Assembly: GCA_030628225.1 (NCBI GenBank)
Contig: DAOVRJ010000107.1
Location: 1-8,184 of the forward strand
DNA: 8,184 nt
DNA from: Candidatus Zixiibacteriota bacterium
GTDB taxonomy: Bacteria > SM23-81
Direction of reading: 5' to 3'
Of the stretch, positions 565 through 7,852 are shown one piece after another. The stretch's first letter is position 1; each line of letters begins with the position of its first letter. Made by a program: the position numbers and the translations under genes. The notes under the pieces are model-generated. The model worked only from the letters and a program-made list of their open reading frames with translations, did not search any database and was not told the origin of the DNA.

Positions 565-2274
565 TCATAAAACCCAGTTCAACACACCCCCCACCAAAAA
601 CGTGGCGACGATCATGATCAGCATGGACAGGATCATGTCCCGCAGCCCCAGCTCTTTGGCCATGACCACGAAGGTGGCCACGCAGGGAAAATACATGGCC
701 AAGACCACGCTGGCCACAACCAGCTGGTTGAGGTTGAGGCCCAGGGGAGAGAGCATGCCCACGGCCACGTCCTTGCGCAGAAAGCCGACCATCAGCGCGG
801 CCACCGCCTCCCGGGGGAGCCCCAGGACGCCGGTGATCACCGGAGCGGTGATTTTGCCCACGAACTCGATGATCCTCAGAGTGTAAAGCACGTTGACGAT
901 CAGAACGCCCAGGATCACGAAGGGCACCGCCTCCCGCAGAAAGCCCTCGATCCGCATCCAGATCTTCTTGGCCAGCCCCGAGAAGTAGGGCAGGCGGTAG
1001 GGAGGGATCTCCACGAAGATCTCCGGGCTCTCACCGCGGATGAGCAGATTCATCAGATATCCCAGGATGATCCAGACAAGGAACAGGGTTCCGAAAACCA
1101 CCAGCAGCCCCCGGGTGCCGGCTTTGCCCACCAGCCCCACGATCATGGCTAACTGGGCTGCACAGGGAATGCAGATGGCCATAAGGGTGACGGAGATGAA
1201 CCGCTCCTTGCGGGTTTCCAGGATGCGGGTGGACATGGTGCCGGGAACGTTACAGCCCAGACCAAGGAGCATCGGTATGATGGCCAGGCCGTGTAACCCC
1301 ATCCGGTGCATGACGGTATCCACCAACACGGCCAGGCGGGGCAGATACCCCGAGTCTTCCAGAAAGCTCAGTATCAGGTAGAAGGCAAAAACGTAGGGGA
1401 GCACCATGGCCAAGGGAACGAACAGGCCGGTGGTCAACAGGCCCATGGACTCCACGAAATCGATCTCGCCGCCCACTAATTTGCCGATGAGGATGTTGTG
1501 CAGGAACCCCCCTGAGCCCAGAATAGCAGACAGTTTCATCATCAAAGGAGCCCAGAGGCCATTGAAGATAGGTTCGAAAAGGTAGCCGATGAGCCCCTCA
1601 CCGATGAAGCGAATGATGTAAAAGGTGAGAAATAGGGCCACCAGGGCAAGGGGGATGCCGGTTATGGGATGGATGGAGGCGTCGCCCAGACGCTCCAGGA
1701 AGGTGTGGTGGCGATGGGTGACCTGCTGCACCTGTTCGGTGATCCTGCCGATCTCATGCCACCGTTCCTCATCCTCGTAGGTGAGCTGTCCGAGCTTTGC
1801 CTCCGGCAACCTGTTGACCAGGTGCAGAATGCCCTCGCCGGTCACGGCCACTGTGGGGATCACGGGAACCCCGAGGAGCTCTTCCAGTTTTTTTTCATCG
1901 ATGGTAATACCGATGTGTTTGGCCTCATCCCACAGGTTCAGGGCCACCACCAGGGGAATGTTCTTTTTTAAAAGCTGCAGGGTGAGGTTGAGGTTTCGCT
2001 CTAAATTGGTGGCGTCCATTACGTTGATGATAAGGTCGCCATCCGCGCACATCTCCACGGCCACCTCTTCGGCCTTGCAGGTGGGATCCAGGGTGTAGGT
2101 ACCGGGAACGTCGATCACCTCGACCTTTTCACCCCCCAGCCTCATTGTGCCGCGGGTGTAACCCACGGTGGTCCCCGGATAGTTGGAGGCGATGACCCGC
2201 ACACCCGTCAGACGGGAGAAGATCACACTTTTGCCCACGTTGGGGCTGCCCATCAACAGGATTTTTTTCATCAT
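565..2274 (-). CDS. feoB: Ferrous iron transporter FeoB
   Basis: Inner-membrane GTPase-coupled Fe(II) uptake protein. From the chosen ATG (2272-2274) it is 569 aa. That start follows GAAGGG in minus-strand reading. A TTG at 2284-2286 is in frame but has no better ribosome site, and the next codon (2269-2271) is also ATG. The N-terminal G domain has G1 GSPNVGKS (residues 9-16), G3 DVPG (55-58), G4 NLWD (113-116) and a G5-like VTGEG (144-148). A short helical linker follows, then a membrane domain from about residue 205. The first Gate region carries GLGCNVPGTMSTR (about 338-350) with its conserved Cys, followed by IPCAAQ. The second Gate region ends in YFPCVATF (528-535). The protein is shorter than the 700-770 aa of enterobacterial FeoB but appears complete, because both Gate motifs are present. 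It is the last feo gene, 27 bp after feoA. No U-tract terminator follows. Confidence 0.96.
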   Translation of the reverse strand: MMKKILLMGSPNVGKSVIFSRLTGVRVIASNYPGTTVGYTRGTMRLGGEKVEVIDVPGTYTLDPTCKAEEVAVEMCADGDLIINVMDATNLERNLNLTLQLLKKNIPLVVALNLWDEAKHIGITIDEKKLEELLGVPVIPTVAVTGEGILHLVNRLPEAKLGQLTYEDEERWHEIGRITEQVQQVTHRHHTFLERLGDASIHPITGIPLALVALFLTFYIIRFIGEGLIGYLFEPIFNGLWAPLMMKLSAILGSGGFLHNILIGKLVGGEIDFVESMGLLTTGLFVPLAMVLPYVFAFYLILSFLEDSGYLPRLAVLVDTVMHRMGLHGLAIIPMLLGLGCNVPGTMSTRILETRKERFISVTLMAICIPCAAQLAMIVGLVGKAGTRGLLVVFGTLFLVWIILGYLMNLLIRGESPEIFVEIPPYRLPYFSGLAKKIWMRIEGFLREAVPFVILGVLIVNVLYTLRIIEFVGKITAPVITGVLGLPREAVAALMVGFLRKDVAVGMLSPLGLNLNQLVVASVVLAMYFPCVATFVVMAKELGLRDMILSMLIMIVATFLVGGVLNWVL

Positions 2275-2301
2275 ATCCCTTCTCAAAAGATGATAACCGG
2301 T

Positions 2302-2538
2302 TTACCCCTCCAGCCCCACGATGATGTGCCTGGCCATTCCGAATCCGACGGCCACCTGGGTGTTTCCCATACTGATGGTGACCGGGCCGCGCATCAGCTG
2401 GGCGCTCACCTTGGTGATCTTGGTTCCCGGCCGGATTCCCATGGCGGTCAGACGCATTTTCATCCCCCGGCCGCCTCTAATCTGGGCGATAGTGCCCCGA
2501 TCTCCAGATTTCATCCTGGTCAGATTTACTGTTTCCAT
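2302..2538 (-). CDS. feoA: Ferrous iron transport accessory protein FeoA
   Basis: A small cytoplasmic protein of 78 aa, the usual size for the family, with an SH3-like beta-barrel fold. Family features are visible: the N-terminal LTRMKSGDRGTIAQI strand region, the central RLTAMGIRPGTKI segment (about residues 30-42), and a C-terminal strand ending in GMARHIIV. FeoA is thought to bind FeoB and support Fe(II) uptake; this is family knowledge and is not shown here. The ATG (2536-2538) has a good Shine-Dalgarno (GAGGT in minus-strand reading). It sits between fur (42 bp upstream) and feoB (27 bp downstream) with no promoter or terminator in either gap, so the three genes should be cotranscribed. 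Confidence 0.96.
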   Translation of the reverse strand: METVNLTRMKSGDRGTIAQIRGGRGMKMRLTAMGIRPGTKITKVSAQLMRGPVTISMGNTQVAVGFGMARHIIVGLEG

Positions 2539-2580: not shown

Positions 2581-3009
2581 TCAACGACGGCGACATTTCT
2601 GGCAATAGCCGTAGAGTTCCAGATTATGTCTCAGTATGGTGAATTTGTGTTTTTTGGCCACCTCTTCCTGTAGATCTTCCAGGTCCTGGTTCTCAAACTC
2701 GATGATGGCGCCGCAGTTGATGCAGATGAAATGATCGTGGTGCTCGTCTCCGGCCACGGGCTCAAAGCGGGTGATGCGTTCCCCGAGTCGACGTTGGCTG
2801 GCCAGGCCGGCCTCCACCAACAGCTTCAATGTGCGGTAGACGGTGGAAAGCCCCACCTTGGGATAGATCTCCCGTATCTGTTGATGCAGTTGTTCGGCGC
2901 TGATGTGTCGTTTTGAACCCAGGAAGATCTGGGCGATTTCCTCCCGCTGTTGGGTGACCTTCAGTCCCCTGTGCCGCAAATACTGACGAAGTGTTTTTGT
3001 CTCGTTCAT
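2581..3009 (-). CDS. fur: Fur-family ferric uptake regulator
   Basis: A 142-aa metal-responsive repressor of normal Fur length. The N-terminal winged helix is recognisable from QYLRHRGLKVTQQRE (about residues 9-23) and the recognition region PKVGLSTVYRTLKLL (50-64). The dimerisation and metal-binding half carries the HHDHF motif (90-94) and two CxxC pairs, Cys96/Cys99 and Cys136/Cys139, which form the structural zinc site in zinc-containing Fur proteins. Its position at the head of feoAB, and the Fur box at its own promoter, favour true iron-sensing Fur over Zur or PerR, although sequence alone does not settle metal specificity. The ATG (3007-3009) has only a weak Shine-Dalgarno (GAG about six bases before it), and no alternative start is better. 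Confidence 0.93.
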   Translation of the reverse strand: MNETKTLRQYLRHRGLKVTQQREEIAQIFLGSKRHISAEQLHQQIREIYPKVGLSTVYRTLKLLVEAGLASQRRLGERITRFEPVAGDEHHDHFICINCGAIIEFENQDLEDLQEEVAKKHKFTILRHNLELYGYCQKCRRR

Positions 3010-5051: not shown

Positions 5052-5576
5052 TCAGCAGCCCTTTCTCTTGATCCGATATCGTCCGTAGCTGGCTATTCCC
5101 ACCAGGCCCATTCCCAGGAGCAAGAGGGTGTTGGGTTCTGGTATCTCAGTGTTTTGGGGAGTGTAATCGCCGGTGAATTCAGAGGAGAGCATGTGAAAGG
5201 CGAAATCGTAAGGATCTCCGGTCAACTGATCGGCGAATATGGTAACATCCAAAATCTCATGATTCCAAAAATTCAGGATAGTCAGATCCGCCCTGTTCCA
5301 TGTCCATATCTGGCTTTGCGCATCCCATGTCCCGGCCATGTGCAGAATGGAGCCGTCCTCGATGAGCTCTCCGTATATGGAAAGACTGGCACTGTTGATG
5401 ATCCCATCGGGGCGCTGGTGAACGTAGCTAAAGGGCTCATCATTCCACACCCATCCCGAAAAAGGATTCCAGATCAGCATATCGCTGAAGGAGGTTGCCG
5501 ATGCCCCGGCGAAAGTGCCCAGGATAAACAGGACAGCTATCAGCGGAACACTCACCGATAGGGTTTTAAATTTCAT
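5052..5576 (-). CDS. PEP-CTERM sorting-domain surface protein
   Basis: A 174-aa exported protein with the two ends of a PEP-CTERM substrate. An N-terminal signal peptide covers about residues 1-27 (hydrophobic core PLIAVLFILG, cleavage near GASA/TSF). At the C-terminus Ile-Pro146-Glu147-Pro148-Asn leads a hydrophobic segment (about 150-164) and a basic tail, YGRYRIKRKGC. Such proteins are processed and anchored or released by an exosortase and are often linked to exopolysaccharide or floc formation; this is family knowledge. The central region (28-140) is rich in Trp, Asp and Ser and is probably a beta-sandwich; I do not recognise it. The ATG (5574-5576) follows GAGG-rich sequence, and an in-frame TGA lies just upstream. 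A strong sigma-54 promoter precedes the gene. No exosortase or glycan genes occur in the window. A single Cys (174) ends the protein. Confidence 0.92.
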   Translation of the reverse strand: MKFKTLSVSVPLIAVLFILGTFAGASATSFSDMLIWNPFSGWVWNDEPFSYVHQRPDGIINSASLSIYGELIEDGSILHMAGTWDAQSQIWTWNRADLTILNFWNHEILDVTIFADQLTGDPYDFAFHMLSSEFTGDYTPQNTEIPEPNTLLLLGMGLVGIASYGRYRIKRKGC

Positions 5577-5651
5577 GATCTCCTCATCTCCTCACTTTTT
5601 CAAGATTCTAGAATAATTGCGAACAATAATCCTACCATTTTACTTGTGAAC

Positions 5652-5666
5652 GCAACTAACGTGCCA
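5652..5666 (-). promoter_or_regulatory. Sigma-54 (-24/-12) promoter of the PEP-CTERM gene
   Basis: The minus strand reads TGGCACGTTAGTTGC, preceded by T. It agrees with the sigma-54 consensus YTGGCACG-N4-TTGC, with exactly 10 bp between the GG (5664-5665) and the GC (5652-5653). Transcription should start near 5640, giving a leader of about 64 nt to the ATG at 5576. No sigma-70 promoter of comparable quality precedes this gene. Expression should therefore depend on RpoN and on an ATP-driven activator protein. Confidence 0.85.
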
Positions 5667-5786: not shown

Positions 5787-5803
5787 TGTCTGGAAATCCG
5801 ACA
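5787..5803. promoter_or_regulatory. Candidate activator site (UAS) 1
   Basis: TGTCTGGAAATCCGACA has dyad symmetry of the form TGTCnG-N5-CnGACA. It lies about 155 bp upstream of the predicted sigma-54 start on the minus strand, in the normal range for enhancer-binding-protein sites. It matches the second site at 15 of 17 positions. Confidence 0.6.
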
Positions 5804-5854
5804 TTAAACTTGGATAGTATGTGCTAACCCTCTTAAATTTATGATATTAAGTCA

Positions 5855-5871
5855 TGTTTGGAAAACCGACA
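5855..5871. promoter_or_regulatory. Candidate activator site (UAS) 2
   Basis: TGTTTGGAAAACCGACA, the second copy of the 17-bp dyad, is in the same orientation and centred 68 bp from the first (about 6.5 helical turns). It is about 223 bp upstream of the sigma-54 start. The right half-site CCGACA is identical in both copies; the left half differs at one base. Confidence 0.6.
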
Positions 5872-6020: not shown

Positions 6021-6049
6021 TTGACAAAGGGGCTTTTCGTTAGTATAGT
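6021..6049 (+). promoter_or_regulatory. Sigma-70 promoter of the histidine kinase gene
   Basis: A perfect -35 TTGACA (6021-6026), a 17-bp spacer, and -10 TATAGT (6044-6049, five of six consensus bases). The expected start near 6056 lies only about 15 nt before the ATG at 6071, so the leader is very short. The kinase and regulator should thus be made constitutively, independent of the sigma-54 promoter on the other strand. Confidence 0.82.
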
Positions 6050-6070
6050 GCAAAATGTTGCAAACTCAGC

Positions 6071-7852
6071 ATGGTAAATCACGGCTATATGAGGCTCACA
6101 GTGACGGATAAAAAATACAATAGTCTGTTAGCGGAGCTGACCGAAAAGAACGCCAGTTTAAAGGTAAAGCTCAAAGAGCTGAATTCTCTCTACCGTGCCT
6201 CGAAGCTGCTGACATCCATGCAGGATTTAGATAAGTTGCTGGATGGAATTATCGGATTGGCTGCCAATGTTCTCCAGGCAAGAACTGGCTCACTGATGCT
6301 GCTGAATGAGGAGACAAACGAGCTCAGCATTTCGGCATCCAAGGGATTGGATGCCGAGACCGTACGCACCGTCAGAATGAAGATCGGGGAGGGCATTGCC
6401 GGATGGGTGGTGGAATACGGAAAGCCCCTGCTGGTGAAGAATGTGGAGAAGGACAGTCGATTCAGGCGGGTGAACAGGGAGAGATATGAGACTAAATCTC
6501 TCATCTCTGTTCCTCTGGAAACACAGGGCAAAATATTAGGTGTTCTGAACCTGAATAACAAGCGGTCTGGAAAGGCATTCACTGCCGCAGATCTCCGACT
6601 GCTGACCTCCTTCGCCGCCCAGGCCGCCGTGGCCGTCGACAACGCTTATCTTCTTGAGCAAAATCGTCGTAAAATTCAGGAGCTTTCCATTCTTTATGAG
6701 ATTGCCAGCAACGTGGGAACGGCGGATGGTTTGAAGAAAGCGGTGGAGAATGTCTTCAGCGGCATATGTCAGATCGTGGATATCGATCATTGCTACTGGT
6801 TTATGTGGGAGGAAAGATACAAAAGGCTCAGCCTGGCCTTCGCCATGGTGGCCGGCAGTCAAATCAGCCAATGGCTGGAGGGGCGTGAGATCTATTTGAC
6901 CGAGGACCTTCTCATCCATCTGAAAGACAGGAGAAAGGATCGGCTGAACAAAACCATCAGGGATTCTCTGATCGATTGGGAGCTGTGCGGCCGGCAGCTT
7001 TCCTTCTTCGATTCCTTCTCCATCCTGGCCAGGGGAAATCTTCACGGTTTGTTCTGTGCTGGGAGCATCACCCTGAAGAGCATTTCCGAGAACGAACTGC
7101 AGTTGATCTCCATCGTTATTTCCCAGGCTGCCTCTTTGTATGAACAGCACTCGGCCCTCAGCAGTGCCACCCATATGATGACCATGAGCAAAGTGGCATC
7201 GGAAATCGCACACGATCTGCGCCATCCCCTGACCAACATCAAGGGGGTCCTGCAGGTTCTGGAGACAAAGTGGTACGATCAGAATTTCCGGGTAGAGTCA
7301 CTCAAACTCATCAATCAGGAGATCTACCGGTTGACGGAGTTGACCAAGGAACTGGTGCGTTTCTCCAATCCCAGCCGATTCCAGGTGAAACACCGAGACA
7401 TCCATCGTATTTTAGACCGAGCTCTGGATCTGGTCAAGGAGGATCTGAGCCGGGGTAAGATCGAACTATGTAAAGAATACGGTCAAGACCTGCCGTTGGT
7501 TTACGTGCACGAAAACGAGGTTTTTGAGATTTTCCTGAACATCCTGCTCAACAGCATCGAAAGCATGGCCGATGGTGGCCAGCTGACCATCGTCACTGAT
7601 CTCCGGGATCACCTCAAGGACGAATCGGGAAAGCCGCTGACCTTCTTGCGGGTGAACTTCACCGACACAGGCGTGGGCATTGCTCCCGAGCACCGGGATC
7701 GGATTTTCGAGCGCTATTTCACTACCAAGGAGGGCGGAACGGGCCTGGGTCTCTCCATCGCTAAAAGAATAGTTGCCGTCCATCGCGGGTTTATCGAGGT
7801 GCACAGCGTTCCCAACAAGGGGTCCACCTTCTCGGTCCACCTTCCCGTCTGA
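6071..7852 (+). CDS. Soluble dual-GAF sensor histidine kinase
   Basis: A 593-aa kinase with no signal peptide or membrane segment, so it should sense a cytoplasmic signal. Domains in order: a short coiled coil (about 14-45); a clear GAF domain (about 50-195, with GEGIAGWVVEYGKPLLVKNV and SLISVPLETQGKILGVLNL); a second, more diverged GAF-like region (about 205-358); HisKA with H-box EIAHDLRHPLTN and phospho-acceptor His381; and HATPase_c with N-box around Asn490-Asn494, G1 DTGVGI (532-537), F-box FERYFTTK (546-553) and G2 GGTGLGLS (555-562). All catalytic motifs are intact. The ATG at 6071 and a second ATG at 6089 are both in frame, and neither has a good Shine-Dalgarno. The response regulator follows after 62 bp and is its likely partner. 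It differs from PrsK of PEP-CTERM systems as I know that family, because PrsK has an N-terminal membrane domain. Confidence 0.93.
   Translation: MVNHGYMRLTVTDKKYNSLLAELTEKNASLKVKLKELNSLYRASKLLTSMQDLDKLLDGIIGLAANVLQARTGSLMLLNEETNELSISASKGLDAETVRTVRMKIGEGIAGWVVEYGKPLLVKNVEKDSRFRRVNRERYETKSLISVPLETQGKILGVLNLNNKRSGKAFTAADLRLLTSFAAQAAVAVDNAYLLEQNRRKIQELSILYEIASNVGTADGLKKAVENVFSGICQIVDIDHCYWFMWEERYKRLSLAFAMVAGSQISQWLEGREIYLTEDLLIHLKDRRKDRLNKTIRDSLIDWELCGRQLSFFDSFSILARGNLHGLFCAGSITLKSISENELQLISIVISQAASLYEQHSALSSATHMMTMSKVASEIAHDLRHPLTNIKGVLQVLETKWYDQNFRVESLKLINQEIYRLTELTKELVRFSNPSRFQVKHRDIHRILDRALDLVKEDLSRGKIELCKEYGQDLPLVYVHENEVFEIFLNILLNSIESMADGGQLTIVTDLRDHLKDESGKPLTFLRVNFTDTGVGIAPEHRDRIFERYFTTKEGGTGLGLSIAKRIVAVHRGFIEVHSVPNKGSTFSVHLPV

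Follow-up and report, generated by a model that had tools for sequence, protein, structure and literature searches.

The PEP-CTERM/exosortase system is a widespread surface-protein sorting system, and its control is poorly known outside Proteobacteria. Upstream activating sequences of the NtrC type consist of two roughly dyad-symmetric sites, located 100-250 bp before a -24/-12 promoter, and the spacing of the classical NtrC pair is smaller than the ~67 bp seen here. A 17-nt motif (motif 1), ending in TTTACA and sometimes repeated (R. rubrum), was described in 2006 from Proteobacteria only; it lies about 63 nt (32-92) before a sigma-54 motif and was predicted to be the site of the regulator PrsR (PMC1569441). 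All five predicted PEP-CTERM targets of the Desulfovibrio vulgaris PrsR (DVUA0057) were enriched in vitro (PMC3333781), and a PEP-CTERM gene of Aquincola is dependent on RpoN (PMC9850573).

The window, the whole stretch of 8184 nucleotides analyzed here, contains two 17-bp sites in the divergent spacer that separates a minus-strand PEP-CTERM gene from a GAF histidine kinase gene on the other side (Table 1). The two sites are identical at 15 of 17 positions and share the same orientation, as the preliminary description had reported, and they are 68 bp apart. The window scan with up to three mismatches returned 2 matches to the 17-mer, only these two sites and both with 0 mismatches; shuffled controls had a mean of 0.14 matches, and 2 matches were reached in 4 of 200 shuffles at this loose setting. 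The symmetry TGTCnG-N5-CnGACA proposed for both sites holds completely for the first one, while the second departs from it once (TGTT), and the dyads are imperfect, with 10 and 8 positions, respectively, equal to their own reverse complement. The strong sigma-54 promoter, reading from 5666 on the minus strand, is directed at the PEP-CTERM gene. Transcription would start at ~5640, about 12 bases beyond the GC of the -12 element, and with this start the site centres agree with the distances of about 155 and 223 bp given earlier. The start of the proximal site and the -24 box are 137 bp apart, and a spacer of about 120 nt separates this site from the sigma-54 element. No structured RNA was matched in the comparison of the window with Rfam.

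Table 1. Features of the window and of the divergent spacer with the two sites
Feature	Position	Strand	Sequence or evidence
feoB-like gene	565..2286	-	tested
Small ORF	2302..2538	-	
ORF resembling a Fur-type regulator	2581..3009	-	by reading
PEP-CTERM protein gene, 174 aa, presumed target	5052..5576	-	PF07589 25.7 bits, cut-off 20.7
Sigma-54 (-24/-12) promoter	5651..5666	-	TGGCACGTTAGTTGCG; 1 mismatch to TGGCACGNNNNTTGCW
Promoter-proximal site, putative PrsR-box-like	5787..5803	gene orientation -	TGTCTGGAAATCCGACA (+ strand letters); TGTCGGATTTCCAGACA (gene orientation)
Promoter-distal site, putative PrsR-box-like	5855..5871	gene orientation -	TGTTTGGAAAACCGACA (+ strand letters); TGTCGGTTTTCCAAACA (gene orientation)
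Sigma-70-like promoter of the kinase gene	6023..6051	+	TTGACA-17-TATAGT, read from sequence
GAF-domain histidine kinase, divergent neighbour	6071..7852	+	GAF, HisKA, HATPase_c
Response regulator, gene cut by contig end	7915..8184	+	receiver domain; full-length counterparts in G001, G002, and G003

The literal 17-mer, which had been put forward as a genome-wide query, defined no regulon. With up to three mismatches it had 26 matches in its own genome (G000) against 42 for the reversed control, showing no excess; at one mismatch or none it matched nothing beyond the two sites of the window, and among five genomes it was not enriched relative to the reversed controls. One match in G012 near a kinase homologue was discarded, as it falls within coding sequence of the opposite strand. 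The motif is searchable in another form, TGTCRG-N8-ACA in gene orientation, with pairs ~67 bp apart. The independent test of the pair was a whole-genome search of four genomes of the phylum for TGTC-N10-ACA occurring twice with a gap of 44-58, which returned 7 matches against 0 for the reversed control on either strand. Two of these precede PEP-CTERM genes of the own genome (the window and C169), two are located in the gap between prsR and the neighbouring GGDEF gene in G000 and G001, one belongs to the promoter of a PEP-CTERM gene in G002, two genes after prsR, and the remaining two, in G002 and G003, lie downstream of the kinase-regulator locus. The earlier proposal of putative paired enhancer sites, serving a specific activator at the sigma-54 promoter that precedes a PEP-CTERM gene, thus gained support, since further PEP-CTERM genes, both in this genome and in its relatives within the phylum, show the same layout.

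Five PEP-CTERM genes were found in the own genome, on C278, C47 (the window), C44, C95, and C169, and the strict pair is present upstream of two of them (the window and C169). When the five upstream regions were dinucleotide-shuffled 20,000 times, it appeared in one region once and in two regions never, a figure that serves as an illustration only, because the pattern was fixed after the five regions had been seen. On C169, TGTCAGGAAAAGATACA and TGTCGGGAAAATTGACA are 66 bp apart and are followed by the promoter TGGCATAACTATTGCT. C95 carries three looser copies, the nearest to the promoter being TGTCGGGATTGTTTACA, followed by the sigma-54-like promoter AGGCGCGGATTTTGCA. Upstream of the C278 gene a sigma-54-like promoter is present and the site was not found; upstream of the C44 gene neither the site nor a close sigma-54-like promoter was found.

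Eleven promoters from the phylum were compiled, comprising the seven paired matches and four weaker ones added by inspection. Their 23 sites have the consensus TGTCGG-N5-WTTWACA. By inspection, the sites are spaced 65-69 bp apart in nine of the eleven, a descriptive figure because the promoters were partly picked by eye after the first ones had been seen. The exceptions are C95 (89 and 81) and G002 PEP1 (50, with a doubtful upstream copy). A sigma-54-like element follows the sites in all eleven promoters, although that of G003 PEP1 is imperfect; the distance from the proximal site start to the -24 box is 90-148 bp, and the motif-to-sigma-54 spacer is about 73 to 131 nt. The recurring pairs always precede a sigma-54-like promoter and match the known PrsR-box class, in line with the former assignment of the two sites as putative activator sites.

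The proteobacterial motif was re-derived from 60 genomes of Burkholderiales (the order of a Rhodocyclaceae record). The combination of TGTCnG-N5-TTTACA and a sigma-54 promoter was found 21 times among the matches listed, in 13 of the 60 genomes, and 0 times in controls. These matches lie mostly 61-65 nt from the promoter, several have a PEP-CTERM gene directly downstream, and the motif recovered before PEP-CTERM genes is TGTCGG-N5-TTTACA. PrsR scored above the family cut-off in 12 of the 13 motif-bearing genomes. None of 14 genomes of Burkholderiales and Syntrophaceae that carry the single proteobacterial motif contained the paired pattern. Among named PrsR-like loci of many phyla, only three motif-plus-promoter matches were obtained, all loose, and the strict proteobacterial pattern matched one of 32 whole genomes. 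Compared with TGTCGG-N5-TTTACA, the window sites retain TGTCGG and ACA and are missing TTT, with 3 mismatches each; the C95 site nearest to its promoter is a full match. The window spacer is outside the range of 32-92 of the proteobacterial set (PMC1569441). Two other features of a PrsR-box regulon, a downstream sigma-54 promoter and a PEP-CTERM target gene, are present in the window.

A true PrsK-PrsR pair is encoded in the own genome, on C205, a contig other than that of the window, with 579.6 bits for PrsR (cut-off 502.6) and 396.1 bits for PrsK (cut-off 300). The genome encodes many sigma-54 activators. Judging from the sequence comparisons, the two sites very probably form a pair of upstream activating sites at which PrsR acts. 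This NtrC-type response regulator, encoded together with the kinase PrsK, would bind both sites in its phosphorylated form, reach the sigma-54 RNA polymerase at the promoter through a DNA loop, and use ATP hydrolysis for promoter opening, following the usual sigma-54 scheme. The PEP-CTERM gene product would then be made while the PrsK signal is on. Both sites of the pair are presumably needed, and their spacing is likely to have a role. As this class of site and the regulator acting on it had already been predicted in the 2006 study (PMC1569441), the type of regulon is not new. The assignment to PrsR is weakened by the absence of TTT from the window sites and by the 137 bp between the proximal site and the -24 box, against a spacer of ~63 nt in Proteobacteria. 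It is also weakened by the orthologous spacer of G001, which keeps one weak site, and by the two PEP-CTERM genes of the own genome (C278 and C44) without a site.

The pair had been expected to be conserved in orthologous spacers; in G001, the nearest relative, it is absent, and the gene adjoining that spacer does not encode a PEP-CTERM protein. Exosortase was not found in the G001 or G003 genomes, though PrsR scored above the cut-off in both; the gene may have been missed, since these assemblies are about 90% complete. The genes after prsR in G002 and G003 are PEP-CTERM genes according to Pfam, those of G003 despite no exosortase being found there. The only exosortase gene of G000 (C173, L114 6292-10714) is located two genes upstream of another NtrC-type regulator, which has 342 bits to TIGR02915, below the cut-off.

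The activator could instead be the response regulator encoded next door, with the GAF kinase as its sensor, in a local control of the PEP-CTERM gene. This is unlikely, and less likely than control by PrsR. The regulator gene adjoins the sites, and its full-length counterparts in G001, G002, and G003 are NtrC-type sigma-54 activators, those of G001 and G002 supporting such a role; the occurrence in G002 and G003 of a paired site downstream of this locus of kinase and regulator, and the position of the regulator before polysaccharide export genes in G001, point in the same direction. Yet the same sites are found beside prsR and at PEP-CTERM genes distant from the kinase locus. The TIGR02915 (PrsR) scores of the counterparts are below the cut-off in all three genomes; that of G001, the window copy being partial, is 408.1 bits against 502.6. 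The DNA-reading helix of the neighbouring regulator, read as SYRSLLYKIKEY in the G001 counterpart, differs from the PrsR helices, which are SRATLYDML and SRPSLYDLM in this phylum, and SRPTLYDLM and close forms in other phyla. G001 keeps both the kinase (78% identity) and the regulator without the pair. The score of the counterpart, the different helix, and the retention of kinase and regulator in G001 beside one weak site favor PrsR and leave the neighbour as a live rival. The kinase itself was rejected as a PrsK, with 76.9 bits against the cut-off of 300. Between the local response regulator and the polysaccharide export genes of G001 (L069, 10857), which are related to XrtA/PEP-CTERM export and chain-length families, there is a sigma-54-like promoter TGGCATATATCTTGCT, and no PrsR-type pair was seen by eye in this promoter region.

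It is far less probable that the sites control the kinase operon on the other side of the spacer, for example, by repressing or activating its sigma-70-like promoter. They do share a spacer with this promoter, 150-240 bp upstream of it, but G001, without the pair, keeps a sigma-70-like promoter at the matching position (TTGACA-17-TAAAAT, read from sequence), and at its other occurrences the pair is followed, in the opposite direction, by sigma-54-like promoters. A chance repeat with no function, to which the literal 17-mer being no commoner than its reversed control at loose settings would fit, is the least credible explanation, given the paired layout in the four genomes against none in controls and its presence in two of the five regions, which no shuffle reproduced.

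Similar pairs also occur in a few genomes of other phyla. A stricter pair was matched in nine of 386 genomes, including G000 and G001, and the reversed control was matched in two (G158 and G429). In G045, G281, and G419, which belong to other phyla, 62-65 bp separate the two sites, and a sigma-54-like element follows after 95-127 bp; PEP-CTERM genes are found at the pairs in G045 (two of four matches) and G419. At the pairs of G235, G263, G274, and G413 (L237, L239, L240, and L242), no sigma-54 element was found, and these may be chance matches or cut short. Behind prsR, both on C205 of G000 (L113, 10605-10836) and in G001 (C9, L115, 5033-4805), there is a paired site, then a sigma-54-like promoter, and then a small gene. 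Because the small gene after prsR in G000 matches the GGDEF model, cyclic-di-GMP control may be included in the PrsR regulon. The paired box ties exopolysaccharide, the GGDEF gene, and PEP-CTERM proteins into one predicted regulon, and, with 7 matches against 0 in the four genomes, it is a sharper query than the single 17-mer for PrsR targets in uncultivated phyla. Plausibly, the non-proteobacterial PrsR regulon has an architecture of its own, with two boxes ~62-69 bp apart, further from the sigma-54 promoter, and a diguanylate-cyclase-like gene beside prsR. If so, the two-box architecture would mean that the activator assembles differently on the DNA.

The locus resembles NtrC-type upstream activating sequences in having two roughly dyad-symmetric sites upstream of a -24/-12 promoter, while it differs from NtrC-type sites in general in its sequence class, which is that of PrsR. 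It shares with the PrsR box of 2006 the length of 17 nt, the TGTCGG left half, the ACA end, and the downstream sigma-54 promoter of a PEP-CTERM gene, and PrsK and PrsR are encoded in the same genome as the sites, as in those systems. Departures from the PrsR box of 2006 are the pairing, with 65-69 bp between sites in most of this phylum's promoters; the separation of 90-148 bp between the start of the proximal site and the -24 box, where the earlier motif had a spacer of ~63 nt; the frequent loss of TTT from the right half; and a host outside Proteobacteria. While this class of site is already known, novelty lies in the fixed pair, its greater distance from the promoter, and its occurrence in a non-proteobacterial host.
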